NCBI GenBank assembly: GCA_945883755.1
Contig: CAMCXX010000007.1
Span: 1-42,118 of the forward strand
DNA: 42,118 bases
DNA from: Bifidobacterium breve
GTDB lineage: Bacteria; Actinomycetota; Actinomycetes; Nanopelagicales; Nanopelagicaceae
Direction: 5' to 3'
A program made the position numbers and the translations under genes. The stretch's first letter is position 1. Every line of letters begins with the position of its first letter. The notes under the pieces were generated by a model. It worked only from the letters and a program-made list of their open reading frames with translations. It searched no databases and was not told the DNA's origin. Shown piece by piece: positions 14,647-25,981 of this stretch.

Positions 14647-16242
14647 CTACCTCACCGCTCTGGTCATTAAATTGATCGCACTTTTGATCTCTTTAACTTT
14701 AAATACAAAGCCTAAAATTAAATAAATTAAGGTACTAACTACTGAAACAATAATTAACTGAATTAAATTCCCGCCCGGTAGAGCGTCGCGAATTAAGAAT
14801 AATGGCGCAATCGCAAAGGTAAAGATGGCGATTAATTTTAAGTAGTGAATGGCAATCGCTGGGATCGCTAGATTAATCTGATGCTTTTTTATTAGGTAGA
14901 AAGAGATGCCAAGACCGATAAAGTAATGAATGGTAAAGATAATTGCCATCGCAACCACAACCCATTTAGATTCAATATAAATAGCAGCGGCAACTGATAA
15001 GAGGACAGAGATTAGATTCATAATAAAGTTACCAATTACTTGCGCCTTAAGATTTTCAAAGGCGTTTAAACCCCGCAGAAGTATCAGATTTATACTTACT
15101 GGAATTAAACCAAGGGCGAAACCAGCCAGGGTGTAACCAAGGTAATTTGCATCATCGGCAGAGATACCAAAGTAAAGGGTGCGGGCAATTAATGGGCCAA
15201 AAAATAAAAAGAGTAATGAGGCTGGGACAATAAAGACACCAACCACCTTAATAGCATTCCTTAACTCACTCTTTATCTCTGGGATTTTCTGATCAATTAC
15301 CAGGTTAGCTAATTTTGGTAGCAGTGCGGTCATTACCGATACGGTAATAATTGAGTGGGGCAGAATGAGAATCAGATAAGCGTTGCTATATGGGGTATAG
15401 CCAACACCAGTTCTTATGCCATTAGCTGCGCTTTCAACTGCAGCGCTAGTTGCAATAATAATTGTTACTAAATAAGACAATTGACTAATTAATGCATATA
15501 AGAAGGACCAACCTGCCAACTTGATTGAGTTAAATAATTGGGTATTTTTCAAATCAAATTTAAATGATAATCGGACACCACTGCGATAAACCACTGGAAA
15601 TAAAATTGCTGCTTGGGCTAAGTAGCCAAATGATGTACCAGCACCAAGCCAGTAAATATCGGTAGTGGTGATATTTCCAATACTTAATTGATCACGGTTT
15701 AACAAATACCAACCAAATAAGGCGATCACAATTAGATTATTGATAACTGGCGCCCACATCATTGGGCCAAATCTGCCCTTCGCATTTGCGATCTGGCCCA
15801 GTAGAGCAAATAAGCCAAGGAAGAAAATTTGTGGTAGGCAGTAACGCATGAATAAAACAGTTACCTCAAACTCCGGTAAACCAGTAAATTTCGGAGCATA
15901 GATATTTACTATTTGTGGCGCCAACCAAATTCCAATTAAGGTTAAAGTAAGTAAAAACAAAACAGTTGTGGTAAATAATCTAGAGATAAATGCATGCCCA
16001 CCATCACTATCGCGGAGTGAGCGAACAATTTGTGGCACAAAGACTGCGGTTAGCGCCCCACCAATTAATAGGTTATATAAAATATTGGGCATCGTATTTG
16101 CAACATTGTAGGTATCACCAAGTAGTGCAGTACCAAGTAATGCAACTAAAAGTAGATTTCTAATCAAGCCAGTAATACGTGAAACAATTGTGCCCGCCGC
16201 CATCAAGGTAGAGGCTTTTGCGATTGAGTTATTTTCCATCAA
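14647..16242 (-). CDS. murJ: Lipid II flippase MurJ (MviN)
   Basis: 531 aa polytopic membrane protein of the MOP superfamily that moves lipid II to the outer face of the membrane. About 14 hydrophobic helices can be counted, and the N-terminal 'ASTLMAAGTIVSRITGL' segment is the MurJ hallmark. Unlike the roughly 1184 aa mycobacterial homologue (Rv3910), it stops right after the membrane domain and has no cytoplasmic pseudokinase or extracellular tail. It overlaps the upstream DUF6049 gene by 14 bp. The gene for sigM, which lies between murJ and trxB in mycobacteria, is absent. Confidence 0.96.
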   Translation of the reverse strand: MMENNSIAKASTLMAAGTIVSRITGLIRNLLLVALLGTALLGDTYNVANTMPNILYNLLIGGALTAVFVPQIVRSLRDSDGGHAFISRLFTTTVLFLLTLTLIGIWLAPQIVNIYAPKFTGLPEFEVTVLFMRYCLPQIFFLGLFALLGQIANAKGRFGPMMWAPVINNLIVIALFGWYLLNRDQLSIGNITTTDIYWLGAGTSFGYLAQAAILFPVVYRSGVRLSFKFDLKNTQLFNSIKLAGWSFLYALISQLSYLVTIIIATSAAVESAANGIRTGVGYTPYSNAYLILILPHSIITVSVMTALLPKLANLVIDQKIPEIKSELRNAIKVVGVFIVPASLLFLFFGPLIARTLYFGISADDANYLGYTLAGFALGLIPVSINLILLRGLNAFENLKAQVIGNFIMNLISVLLSVAAAIYIESKWVVVAMAIIFTIHYFIGLGISFYLIKKHQINLAIPAIAIHYLKLIAIFTFAIAPLFLIRDALPGGNLIQLIIVSVVSTLIYLILGFVFKVKEIKSAINLMTRAVR

Positions 16243-21115: not shown

Positions 21116-23080
21116 ATGAATAAGCTGCGGGAGCGATTACCCAGAATTGCGGTTTTAATCACCGGCTTCGGTTTTGTCGCCGGCGTATTCATCTTTGTTT
21201 TTGCTTACTTCACCGTCTCAATTCCAGATCCAAATGCTTATGTAAACTCCCAATCAACAATTATTCAATACGCAGATGGCTCTGAGATCGGGCGAATTGG
21301 CTCTGAAAATCGAACCGTAGTAACTCTTGCACAAATTCCATTAACTGTTCGACAAGCGGTGATGGCGGCCGAGGATCGTAATTTTTATACAAATAAAGCT
21401 TTTAGCGTAACCGCATTAGCGCAAGCTGTACTTGATAATGTTATTTCGCTCGGTCAGGGCCGAGGCGGTTCAACTATCACTCAGCAGTATGCCAAGACCG
21501 CATTTTTAACACCAGAGCGGAGTATTGTTCGTAAAGTTAAAGAGTTAATTATTGCAATTAAGTTGGAGAATCAATTCTCTAAGGATCAAATCTTTGAAAA
21601 TTACTTAAATACAATTTACTTTGGCCGCGGCTCTTACGGTGTGCAAACCGCATCTCAACTTTACTTTGGAACCACAGTTGATCAATTAAATGTCGCACAA
21701 GCTGCCGTTCTCGCCTCTATTTTACGAAGCCCAGGTTTATATGATCCCGGCTTTAAGGCGGAGAATCTACCTAGATTAGAAAATCGCTTCTCCTATGTTA
21801 TTGATGGCATGGTTGACGAGAAGTGGTTAACCGAGGAACAAGCGAGCAAGGTTAAATTTCCATTTATTAATCCCCGAGTTACATCAGGTGCGCTATCTGG
21901 GCCAAAGGGTTATGTAATCTCTTGGGTAGAGCGTGAGTTAAACCGACTTGGCTTTACCGATGAACAATTATTAATTGGTGGCTACATAATTAAGACCACA
22001 TTGGTAAAGGAGGCGCAAGAGGCTGCGGTTGCGGCGGTAAATCAAGAGGCACCAGTTAGGGTGCCAGAAAACTTACATATTGGCTTGGTTTCAATTAAGC
22101 CTGGCACTGGTGAAATCTTGGCGATGTATGGCGGTAAGGATTATTTAAAGTATCAATTTAATGCAGCAACTCAAGGCATCGCATCTGGCGGATCCTCTTT
22201 TAAACCATTTGCCTTAGTTGCAGCGCTAGAAGCGGGCATCCCATTAACTTCAGTATGGAATGGTGATTCACCAAAGGTTTACGATGATGGAATCGGTCGG
22301 CCATACGTTGTAAATAATTACGGTGGCAAAAATTTGGGCGATATCTCATTGCTGACTGCAACCGAAGAGTCAATAAATACAATTTATGTACCACTAGGAA
22401 TTAAAGTTGGTGTAGATAAAGTAGTAGATGTTGCAAGACGTGCCGGAATTCCAGATTCAGTTGAGATGGTGGCATCGCCATCAGTAACACTTGGCTCATC
22501 GAGCCCACATGTAATTGATGTGGCTAATGCTTACGCCACCTTTGCAGCACAAGGTGTTTATGCCAAACCATTTATTATCAATGAGGTGCAAGGTCCAAAT
22601 AAAGGAATTTTGTATCAGGGCAGAATTCAGGCACAAGAGGTATTTAATAAAGAGGTAATGGCAGATTTAACCTACGCTCTATATCGCACAACAGTTGCCG
22701 GAACTGGTGGAATTGTTGGCGCCCGACTTGCTCGACCATCAGCTGGTAAAACTGGAACCTCAAATGACAACGCCGCAGCTTGGTACTCCGGTTATACACC
22801 CGAGGTTGCTGCAAGTGTTGCCTTCTATCGCGATGATGCAACTCAAACATTAAATGGAATTGGTGGCCTTACCTCTGTAACTGGTGGCTCATTCCCAGCG
22901 CGTATTTGGGCGGCGTATGTAAAGGCGTATCTTGGCAGAGCGCCAATTCAACAATTCCCAGCGCCAACAAATATTGGCGGTACCGATCCAGTTGATTATA
23001 TAAATGCAGTACCAACTATGGATCCAGCATTAATTCCACCATCACCAACACCAACGCCAAAACCAAAGAAGAAAAGTTAA
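21116..23080 (+). CDS. ponA: Bifunctional penicillin-binding protein 1A
   Basis: 654 aa class A PBP that polymerises glycan strands and cross-links peptides. There is an N-terminal membrane anchor at about 10-33. The GT51 domain shows the catalytic EDRNFY (E86) and GGSTITQQYAKT. The transpeptidase has the SxxK nucleophile at S360/K363, an SxN motif in ESINTIY, and KTGT near 545. A short Pro/Lys tail (PTPTPKPKKKS) follows; no PASTA repeats are present. Synteny with Rv0050 (ponA1) and the rpsF operon is clear. Its TAA is followed in the same frame by sequence encoding the start of the next gene. Confidence 0.96.
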   Translation: MNKLRERLPRIAVLITGFGFVAGVFIFVFAYFTVSIPDPNAYVNSQSTIIQYADGSEIGRIGSENRTVVTLAQIPLTVRQAVMAAEDRNFYTNKAFSVTALAQAVLDNVISLGQGRGGSTITQQYAKTAFLTPERSIVRKVKELIIAIKLENQFSKDQIFENYLNTIYFGRGSYGVQTASQLYFGTTVDQLNVAQAAVLASILRSPGLYDPGFKAENLPRLENRFSYVIDGMVDEKWLTEEQASKVKFPFINPRVTSGALSGPKGYVISWVERELNRLGFTDEQLLIGGYIIKTTLVKEAQEAAVAAVNQEAPVRVPENLHIGLVSIKPGTGEILAMYGGKDYLKYQFNAATQGIASGGSSFKPFALVAALEAGIPLTSVWNGDSPKVYDDGIGRPYVVNNYGGKNLGDISLLTATEESINTIYVPLGIKVGVDKVVDVARRAGIPDSVEMVASPSVTLGSSSPHVIDVANAYATFAAQGVYAKPFIINEVQGPNKGILYQGRIQAQEVFNKEVMADLTYALYRTTVAGTGGIVGARLARPSAGKTGTSNDNAAAWYSGYTPEVAASVAFYRDDATQTLNGIGGLTSVTGGSFPARIWAAYVKAYLGRAPIQQFPAPTNIGGTDPVDYINAVPTMDPALIPPSPTPTPKPKKKS

Positions 23081-23191
23081 GCCATAACTCTGAAAGGGAA
23101 GTTCGCCTTAATTTTAATTGGCTGCGCCTTAATTTCAATCACAAAATTTAATCACTGCCGAACCAATGATTTTCAATCTCCTGATAATTAT
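23081..23191 (+). other. In-frame coding extension without a standard start codon
   Basis: Between the ponA TAA (23078-23080) and the first ATG/GTG/TTG of the next gene (GTG 23192), the reading frame is open for 37 codons. It encodes a basic-then-hydrophobic stretch (KGKFALILIGCALISI) and then the lead-in to the HACYTDIP motif, so it reads as the true N-terminus with its first membrane helix. Candidate starts are ATA at 23084 and CTG at 23090. Otherwise an A-for-G error or mutation may have destroyed an ATG at 23084, or translation may be reinitiated or read through from ponA. Confidence 0.65.
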
Positions 23192-24244
23192 GTGCACGCC
23201 TGTTACACCGATATTCCAGCATTGTTTGGCGAGCGAGGATTGATCGATAACACCTGGCCTTACCTATCAGCTGATAATTCAATGGAGTATCCACCAATTA
23301 TTGGATTAGGAAATTGGCTGATCTCATTTGTTGTGCCGGCTGAAAACTCATATCGCTGGTTTTTTGATATAAATGTGCTGCTACTAATTGGTTGCTTTAT
23401 CGCAATTAGTTTTTTACTCAGAAAGATGAGACCAGAGCACTCATATTTATTCCCACTAGCACCAGCAGTTATAGCCTCACTCTTTATTAATTGGGATCTT
23501 TGGGCGGTAATTACCTTACTTCTGGCAATCTACTACTTTGATAGTAAAAAATATGATGCCAGCGCAATTGCCCTTGCGATCTCAATCTCTACTAAGTTCT
23601 TTCCGATAGTTTTACTCTTACCGGTAGCAATTTTGTTTTGGCGAAACCATCAATTAAAACAATTAAGGTCATACCTATTTTTCGTATCTCTTTTCTGGTC
23701 GGCGATAAATTTACCGATCATTTTTACCTCATTTGATGGCTGGTGGCGCTTCTTTAGATTAAATCTTGATCGGGGCCCAGATTTTGGCTCGATCTGGTTT
23801 GCGTTAAATATCTTTGGCTTTAACCTATCCGGCTTAAATAATCTTTACAGCCTTATTTCAATTGTGGCATTTATTGGATTTGCGATCTGGTTAATTAAGT
23901 TAAATACAACTCCTAGTTTGGCCCAACTCTCATTTTTTCTAATTTTAATCTTTACTACCTTGGCGAAGGTTTACTCACCCCAATATGTTTTATGGTTAAC
24001 CCCACTTGCAATTATTGCGATGCAGCAACGTAAACAAATCTCCGCATTTTGGATCTGGCAGATAACTGAAATGATTTATCACCTAGCGATCTGGCAGTAC
24101 TTAGCGCTCGATCAAGGCGCAGAGTTTGGTCTGCCCGCCGGTGGTTACGCACTAGCGATCTTGATCCGAATAGGCGGGGTTAGCTGGTTTGCTTACAAAT
24201 TAGCCTCAGAAATCCACAGATCTCACGCACCAATTTCTCGCTGA
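23192..24244 (+). CDS. Polytopic membrane protein, GT87/mannosyltransferase-like (start uncertain)
   Basis: 350 aa from the first standard start (GTG 23192), about 384-386 aa if it begins at 23084-23090, which I think likelier. Eight or more membrane helices are visible. Early motifs (HACYTDIPALFGERGL, then YPPIIGLGNWL) and the position between ponA and rpsF match the Rv0051-type integral membrane family, related to GT-C/GT87 polyprenyl-phosphate-dependent mannosyltransferases. An acidic pair in the first extracellular loop would be the catalytic region in GT-C enzymes, but I cannot confirm activity. Shorter than Rv0051 (about 560 aa). Confidence 0.75.
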   Translation: MHACYTDIPALFGERGLIDNTWPYLSADNSMEYPPIIGLGNWLISFVVPAENSYRWFFDINVLLLIGCFIAISFLLRKMRPEHSYLFPLAPAVIASLFINWDLWAVITLLLAIYYFDSKKYDASAIALAISISTKFFPIVLLLPVAILFWRNHQLKQLRSYLFFVSLFWSAINLPIIFTSFDGWWRFFRLNLDRGPDFGSIWFALNIFGFNLSGLNNLYSLISIVAFIGFAIWLIKLNTTPSLAQLSFFLILIFTTLAKVYSPQYVLWLTPLAIIAMQQRKQISAFWIWQITEMIYHLAIWQYLALDQGAEFGLPAGGYALAILIRIGGVSWFAYKLASEIHRSHAPISR

Positions 24245-24322: not shown

Positions 24323-24607
24323 ATGCGTCGTTATGAACTCATGGTCATTCTTGATCCTGATTTAGAAGAGAAGACAGTTGCCCCAAGTCTTGAAACTTAT
24401 CTAAAGATAATTAAAGATGGTGGCGGCAAGGTCGACAAGCTTGATATCTGGGGTAAGCGCCGGATGTCCTTTGAAATAAATAAAAAGGGCGAAGGTATTT
24501 ACGCAGTTATTGATATGCACAGCGAGCCCGCACCAGTTAAAGAGTTGGATCGTCAACTTAATTTAAATGAGTCGGTTCTTCGCACCAAAGTTGTACGGCC
24601 AGAGTAA
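24323..24607 (+). CDS. rpsF: 30S ribosomal protein S6
   Basis: 94 aa, with the typical start [16 protein letters not shown] and the conserved [15 protein letters not shown] segment. S6 pairs with S18 on the 30S platform, and S18 is encoded two genes downstream. It is the first gene of rpsF-ssb-rpsR-rplI. The ATG has AGAGGTGG 8 nt upstream. Confidence 0.97.
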
Positions 24608-24667
24608 AAAAGAAATCCCGCGTAACTAATAAACAACAAGCATCCAAAGTAGATAGGGGAAAAGGAA

Positions 24668-25159
24668 ATGGCAGCAGGAGATACCAACCTAACAATGATC
24701 GGTAATTTGGTTAACGATCCTGAACTTCGCTTCACTCCATCCGGAGCAGCAGTAGCAAAGTTCACCGTTGCATCAACACCGCGTTACTTAGATAAGAACA
24801 CAAATGAGTGGAAGGATGGCGATAGCCTCTTTTTACAATGCCAGATCTGGCGCCAAGCAGCTGAAAATGTTGCTGAATCTCTAACTCGTGGAATGCGAGT
24901 AATTGTCTCTGGACGTTTAAAGCAACGTTCATATGAAACAAAAGAGGGAGAAAAGCGCACCGTATTTGAGGTAGAGGTTGATGAGGTTGGACCATCACTT
25001 CGCAATGCAACTGCAAAGGTTACAAAGACATCTCGACAAGCAGGTACCGGTTACACCGCACCAGCTGCCGAGACCGCATCAGCTGAGGATCCATGGTCAG
25101 CCGCACCCGTAGGTGGCGGTTGGTCTACGACTCCAAGTGATGATGCACCACCGTTTTAA
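24668..25159 (+). CDS. ssb: Single-stranded DNA-binding protein
   Basis: 163 aa. An OB-fold occupies about 1-110 ([19 protein letters not shown] at the start), followed by a short flexible linker and the conserved acidic tip DDAPPF that recruits replication and repair proteins. The ATG has a GGGGAAAAGGA SD region. Encoded between rpsF and rpsR as in most Actinobacteria. Confidence 0.97.
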
Positions 25160-25186
25160 ACAAAACTAACCATCAACCATTCCTAA

Positions 25187-25210
25187 CTTTTTAAAAAAGC
25201 TAGGGCCCTA
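25187..25210. repeat. Tandem palindromes in the rpsR leader
   Basis: CTTTTTAAAAAAG (25187-25199, odd-centred palindrome) is followed after one base by the perfect 10 bp palindrome TAGGGCCCTA (25201-25210), 16 bp before the rpsR start. They could fold in mRNA or bind a dimeric protein; no function is known to me. Confidence 0.4.
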
Positions 25211-25226
25211 AAAAAGGAGCACCACA

Positions 25227-25514
25227 GTGGGAGCAAGAAGTAATAAAACGCTTAGAGAAAAACCTAAGCAATCTAAGGCAGCAGCAGCTGCACTTAAGAA
25301 GTTTAAGAAGAAGCCATGTTCATTTTGTCGTGACAAGGTGAATTACATCGATTACAAAGATATTGCCACCCTTCGTAAGTACATCACCGATCGCGGCAAG
25401 ATCCGCGCTCGCCGTATTACGGGTGCATGCACAGAACACCAACGAGCAATCGCCGCAGCGGTAAAAAATAGCCGCGAGATGGCACTGCTCCCTTACACCT
25501 CCACAGCTCGCTAA
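25227..25514 (+). CDS. rpsR: 30S ribosomal protein S18 (zinc-binding type)
   Basis: 95 aa from GTG 25227 with an AAAGGAGC SD. The core [15 protein letters not shown] and GACTEHQR are typical of S18. The CxxC pair plus the later cysteine in GACTEHQ suggests the zinc-binding (C+) form rather than the zinc-independent paralogue some Actinobacteria carry elsewhere. The N-terminal 30 residues are basic and Ala-rich. Confidence 0.96.
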
Positions 25515-25531
25515 GGAAAGGGTTAAGTAAA

Positions 25532-25981
25532 ATGAAATTAATTCTTACTCGCGAAGTATCAGGTCTTGGTAGTGCTGGCGATGTTGTAACTGTTAAAGAT
25601 GGTTATGGCCGTAACTTTTTACTGCCTCGTGGCAATGCAATTGTTTGGACCAAGGGTGGCGAAGGCCAGATCGAAGGAATTAAGCGAGCACGCTCTGCTC
25701 GTGAGATCCGCGACCTTGATCATGCAAAAGAGATTAAAAATAAACTTGAATCAGCAAATATTGTTGTAAAGGTAAAGATCGGCGCAACCGGCAGCATGTT
25801 TGGTTCAGTAACTGATAAGGATTTAGTTGCTGCAATTAAATCATCAACTGGTGAGACTGTTGATCGACACAGTATCAAACTTACAAAGCACATCAAAAAG
25901 GTGGGTAAGTACACCATCCGCATCGCACTTGAATCTCAGGTAGTTGCAAATGTTCCAGTAAGTGTGGTCTCAGATAAGTAA
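25532..25981 (+). CDS. rplI: 50S ribosomal protein L9
   Basis: 149 aa two-domain protein. The N-terminal MKLILTREVSGLGSAGDVV with the VKDGYGRNFLLPRG motif is the L9 signature; the long connecting helix and C-terminal RNA-binding domain follow. It starts 17 bp after rpsR and is last in the operon, which ends at the hairpin at 25995-26031. Confidence 0.97.
   Translation: MKLILTREVSGLGSAGDVVTVKDGYGRNFLLPRGNAIVWTKGGEGQIEGIKRARSAREIRDLDHAKEIKNKLESANIVVKVKIGATGSMFGSVTDKDLVAAIKSSTGETVDRHSIKLTKHIKKVGKYTIRIALESQVVANVPVSVVSDK

Follow-up and report, generated by a model that had tools for sequence, protein, structure and literature searches.

The genes infC and pcnB are rare bacterial examples of a near-cognate start, in both cases AUU. 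The codon CUG accounts for 0.024% of bacterial starts and is 0.86% as efficient as AUG, according to the part of PMC11497404 available to us. Reinitiation needs short distances between stop and start, and its efficiency is described in the accessible sections of PMC10666635 as dropping steeply with distance. Both subjects bear on a gene junction in the window, by which we mean the whole analysed stretch of 42,118 nucleotides, taken from a draft genome that totals 998,171 bases and is split into 38 contigs.

In this window a gene encoding a ponA-type bifunctional penicillin-binding protein (21116-23080, + strand; Pfam Transgly and Transpeptidase) ends in a TAA at 23078-23080, and the same frame stays open from 23081 to a TGA at 24242-24244, making 387 codons with no internal stop. 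The ponA product has a Lys-rich C-terminus and its best match is NCBIfam PBP_1a_fam, though under the cut-off of that family. The genes rpsF (S6), ssb, rpsR (S18) and rplI (L9) lie downstream (24323-25981, +; NCBIfam S6, ssb, S18 and L9 above cut-off), followed by dnaB among the neighbours. This order resembles that in Mycobacterium tuberculosis, ponA1 - membrane protein Rv0051 - rpsF - ssb - rpsR - rplI, with Rv0051 beside ponA1; the likeness is one of gene order.

The first ATG, GTG or TTG in the frame that follows ponA is a GTG at 23192-23194 (+), exactly 37 codons in, and before the first predicted helix just two near-start codons occur, ATA at 23084-23086 and CTG at 23090-23092 (+). Both observations had been made in a first-pass annotation of this DNA and were confirmed in the sequence. 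A run of 37 coding codons without a start has a chance of about 17% by in-frame codon frequency, which is not rare on its own, and 37 stop-free triplets have a chance of about 12% in random DNA of the same composition; the significance of the run therefore rests on homology.

The upstream codons and the encoded enzyme

Orthologues were compared at 212 loci, the 218 genomes of the family with a match being covered as far as they were among the matches listed. Nanopelagicaceae MAGs and Candidatus Nanopelagicus are among the relatives matched by protein, and the source of the window is thus most likely a Nanopelagicus-type actinobacterium. Of these loci 206 were analysable and were then collapsed to 180 distinct ones; the six left out were L022, L025, L063 and L076, 3' fragments in which the N-terminal query was unmatched, and L031 and L032, which had no anchor. 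A contig titled Polaribacter (Bacteroidota; L080, JALQYN010000070.1) carries a Nanopelagicaceae-type copy of the gene, probably as contamination of that MAG. Viral contigs were also searched for relatives and none were found.

An ATG, GTG or TTG is present upstream of the same helix in 177 of the 180 distinct loci (among the matches listed); the distance from this start to the invariant Cys just past the helix is 19 codons or more. The nearest standard start is ATG in 97, GTG in 40 and TTG in 39 of them, and in one it lies more than 45 codons away. The other three loci keep the helix and have no standard start. These are the window itself (L001), the nearest of the relatives available, G015 (L002 = L034; the MAG of an uncultured actinobacterium, 83% identical, separately assembled as CAITID010000140.1) and G027 (L023), and all three have an in-frame CTG 4-9 nt past the ponA stop. 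A start at the position of GTG 23192 was found in none of the orthologous loci examined among the matches listed, so that the helix-less orthologues which the first-pass annotation had set against its own proposal did not appear.

Comparison of the window with G015 is informative at the codon level. Of the 34 codons that begin with CTG and end just before GTG 23192, 24 are identical, 6 differ synonymously and 4 non-synonymously, with 2, 2 and 9 changes at codon positions 1, 2 and 3, and of the 350 codons downstream 180 are identical, 109 synonymous and 61 non-synonymous. This positional pattern indicates that coding constraint reaches upstream of GTG 23192. Moreover, an alignment of 42 orthologues shows no variation at residues C23 and P31 (numbered from CTG) and has S16 and K19 in 38 of the 42 sequences, all four residues being encoded upstream of GTG 23192. 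These comparisons show that the upstream codons encode a real and conserved N-terminus which includes the first transmembrane helix (TM1), as had been proposed. With no ordinary start available, a rare codon just past the ponA stop is almost certainly where translation begins.

The gene product is a GT-C lipid-linked mannosyltransferase-type membrane enzyme (GT87/PIG-M/PimE-like). It resembles the GT87, PIG-M and PimE enzymes in its fold and in the families of its orthologues, four of the six orthologues searched passing Pfam GT87 (L072, L077, L079 and L082) and three of the six passing PIG-M, two of these without GT87. The window protein itself is unlike them in being below the Pfam cut-offs, with no family above cut-off and no match to GT87 (PF09594). 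The 384-residue protein read from CTG (23090-24244, +) was modelled with AlphaFold2 from the 42-sequence alignment (pLDDT 92.2, pTM 0.91), and in the model the first helix spans residues 5-25 (TM1, 23102-23164, +). Foldseek followed by VIA-align, with rows drawn from Foldseek's own list only, matched it in the PDB to GPI mannosyltransferase I, PIG-U, ALG3, ALG6 and PimE (Z 19.5-26.7 over 337-358 residues). The VIA-align comparison places the model in the GT-C fold, and with the best-matching solved GT-C enzymes it aligns from residue 1 to residues 377-384, with Z up to 26.7. In addition, a profile search of PDB sequences returned GPI mannosyltransferase 1 with an E-value of 7.9e-10.

In GT-C enzymes the acidic residue needed for catalysis sits in the first external loop, which follows TM1. 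In the window protein the loop after TM1 holds the motif HACYTDIP (23195-23218, +; invariant columns C38, Y39 and D41), and its Asp41 (23210-23212) is invariant in 42 of 42 orthologues, which suggests that it is probably the catalytic Asp. A protein without residues 1-34 has no TM1, and the probable catalytic loop of this cell-envelope glycosyltransferase would then have the wrong topology. Gene finders limited to ATG, GTG and TTG would miss the start and cut off this helix; the expectation that annotation would truncate the protein is thus upheld by the orthologue comparison.

The start codon at the ponA junction

Two codons can be considered in the space between the ponA stop and the helix. 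CTG 23090 lies 9 nt after the stop, and the gap itself (23081-23089, +) holds ATA 23084-23086; the junction of G015 has the same arrangement, gcc ATA NCT CTG. Of the two we favour CTG, and consider it moderately likely that this codon is the start and that it is reached by reinitiation coupled to ponA. The genome G022, which is sister to the window plus G015 (support 100/99) and is the nearest member of the clade with a standard start, has a GTG at the position of the window's CTG, both codons being 22 codons before the invariant Cys. This GTG overlaps the ponA TGA (gap -4). Judged by eye, it may owe its place to a deletion of 14 nt, in which case more than a simple substitution separates it from CTG. 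In G027 the CTG is 25 codons before the invariant Cys, the same distance as the ATG in L064, and inspection of the stretch before the helix showed no ATA, ATT or ATC.

The genome G027 is placed outside the genus clade (PMSF tree, 99/96), on a long branch whose exact place is unsure. As read from the sequences, the start-less state is common to two species and has arisen separately in a third, the window's exact arrangement being known in two species only. An in-frame CTG occurs in the comparable 10-codon stretch of just 14 of the 177 other loci, from which we calculate a probability of about 0.6% that CTG would be present by chance in both independent start-less lineages. The genome G018, which is close to the window's genome by infC (99%), is 69% complete and gave no match at this locus.

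A start at ATA, the second codon after the ponA TAA, is the best of the alternatives, and it would have replaced the TTG that most relatives of the same genus (L003 and L012, for example) have 3 nt past the ponA stop, at the very place held by the ATA in the window. The ATA is conserved in G015, and the purine-rich stretch which could pair with the ribosome is better spaced for it (8 nt, vs 14 nt for CTG). AUA starts are also known in infC and ccpN of Staphylococcus aureus, but according to the available part of PMC13009471 these have extended Shine-Dalgarno motifs and the ATA of the window is without one. Moreover, the same region of G027, the second lineage with no standard start, has no ATA, and an in-frame ATA is present in 19 of the 177 other loci. 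Against the CTG reading counts a mycobacterial reporter with a Shine-Dalgarno sequence in which ATT was enriched (9.8%) and CTG was not (0.03%), as given in the accessible text of PMC4633059. The better spacing of ATA, the TTG position, the possible deletion in G022 and this reporter result are the reasons why CTG is held at the level stated above and why ATA is kept as a possible, though rather unlikely, start. It had also been suggested that the ATA is a mutated ATG; this is less favoured than a start at CTG.

The CTG reading agrees with the tight spacing of the junction. Among the 174 loci where ponA was found upstream, 165 have their start between -10 and +15 nt from the ponA stop, a count that leans to short gaps as the standard start closest to the ponA stop was taken where several were possible. 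The start-less loci have gaps of +9 (window), +9 (G015) and +4 (G027), and the +9 nt of the window is within the very short stop-start distance of translationally coupled gene pairs. Pairing with the anti-Shine-Dalgarno sequence is weak at the junction throughout (median -2.2 kcal/mol, n=176), with -2.2 kcal/mol for CTG and -2.5 for ATA in the window, and the strong extended Shine-Dalgarno at short spacing of the ccpN and cvfC1 type is present at neither codon. Weak pairing in all species is more in keeping with coupling than with a separate ribosome-binding site. Ribosomes finishing ponA would not leave the mRNA but start again at the first codon that they can tolerate. Pairing of the initiator tRNA with CTG would be weak, and the output of the enzyme would then be low and tied to that of ponA.

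The remaining explanations are considerably weaker. It is improbable that the protein starts at GTG 23192 without TM1, or that the gene is decaying; this GTG is indeed the first standard start, but a protein beginning there would lose the conserved residues as well as the helix, no orthologous locus among the matches listed begins at that place, the constraint seen against G015 extends upstream of it, and a decaying gene is hard to reconcile with the long uninterrupted frame. Read-through of the ponA TAA, giving a ponA-transferase fusion, is very improbable, for although the two genes share a frame in the window and in G015, the frames differ in G022 (-4), the start-less G027 (+4), L064 (+13) and L061 (+14). 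Equally slight is the chance that a sequencing or assembly error deleted an ATG from this draft sequence, given that the separately assembled relative has the same start-less arrangement. Among the four explanations offered in the first-pass annotation, a rare non-AUG start with reinitiation coupled to ponA is therefore the best supported.

Other candidate unusual starts in the genome

Further odd starts were sought with a codon-usage scan of a 401,100-base sample of the window's own genome, holding 382 putative genes. The scan is weak for membrane genes; its first version dropped the window gene and its second ranked it low (upstream score -4.0), and it neither supports nor excludes other cases of odd starts. 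As a positive control it found infC again (L231:1890-2468, G000:C20), which has no standard start before the conserved sequence; an ATC follows AAGGAG, as in relatives from the Actinomycetes, and ATC AGC, ATC ACC or ATC ACT is present where the known odd start of infC is expected in 30 loci (among the matches listed).

The same search led to a genus-wide ATT start in these streamlined freshwater bacteria. The gene encoding a YdcZ/DMT-family transporter (PF04657; L230:11194-12150, G000:C19:11194-12150) has no ATG, GTG or TTG for 45 codons. An ATT stands at the aligned place in 12 of 13 loci of the genus and a TTG in the thirteenth (G003). The ATT is preceded, at a distance of 4-8 nt, by a strong Shine-Dalgarno whose pairing energy is -6.6 to -8.4 kcal/mol. 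Three of the 12 ATT loci also have a standard codon nearby, namely G005 with a GTG that precedes the anchor Glu by 3 codons, G009 with a TTG 1 codon before that Glu and G013 with a TTG upstream of the Shine-Dalgarno; in more distant genera the start is mostly ATG or GTG. Since mycobacteria can use ATT as a start when it has a Shine-Dalgarno, as reported in the available part of PMC4633059, the ATT start of YdcZ is well grounded, and we regard it as a cleaner and stronger case than the CTG at the ponA junction.

Three other genes were noted. In an Acyltransferase_3 gene (L226:2671-3696, G000:C15) the domain match begins 11 codons before the first ATG, and a CTG runs into the TGA that ends the gene before it (CTGA), by eye one for a Crp-like regulator; no close orthologue of the acyltransferase was found. 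The frame of a DUF418 protein (L221:4438-5511, G000:C10) extends 57 codons upstream of the first standard start, and this stretch is family-like by eye, which may reflect a frameshift or a truncated gene. A conserved gene on the minus strand (L223:15170-16120, G000:C12) has a stop directly after the place of an aligned TTG, the rest of the frame being open. Its part at 15170-15946 (-) was rejected as a conserved odd start, as G018 (90% identical) has an intact gene with a standard TTG, so the stop in the window's genome is a mutation or an error.

Tentatively, starts at the ponA-coupled junction may be under relaxed selection, with repeated drift from ATG, GTG or TTG to CTG, here at least twice, and no loss of function, and the near-cognate starts of the genus (CTG, the ATT of YdcZ and possibly the CTGA of the acyltransferase) may amount to hidden N-termini that are truncated or missed. 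The reason may be that ribosomes which have just terminated bring initiation to the junction themselves.

Comparison with known systems

The start of the transferase gene is a further example of a known but rare class, the near-cognate bacterial starts. A literature search on Nanopelagicus and start codons found nothing, and the terms 'CUG' and 'non-AUG' are absent from the text of PMC12548453. The two separate origins of CTG at one coupled junction offer a natural test of how strict reinitiating ribosomes are about the start codon.

The S. aureus genes ccpN (AUA) and cvfC1 (AUU) resemble the window gene in having no AUG, GUG or UUG, in the conservation of the odd codon between species and in the low output expected. 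They differ from it in relying on extended Shine-Dalgarno motifs, according to the available part of PMC13009471, whereas pairing in the window is weak. The locus is like termination-reinitiation coupling in that the start is a few nucleotides from the upstream stop in 165 of the 174 loci, but the cases described in the accessible portions of PMC10666635 and PMC12548453 are mostly overlaps of -4 and -1 nt. Unlike the known near-cognate starts, the one in the window stands 9 nt after a stop codon and its codon is probably CTG. What is unusual here is that a probable CTG start has arisen on two occasions at a single coupled junction which lacks a Shine-Dalgarno.
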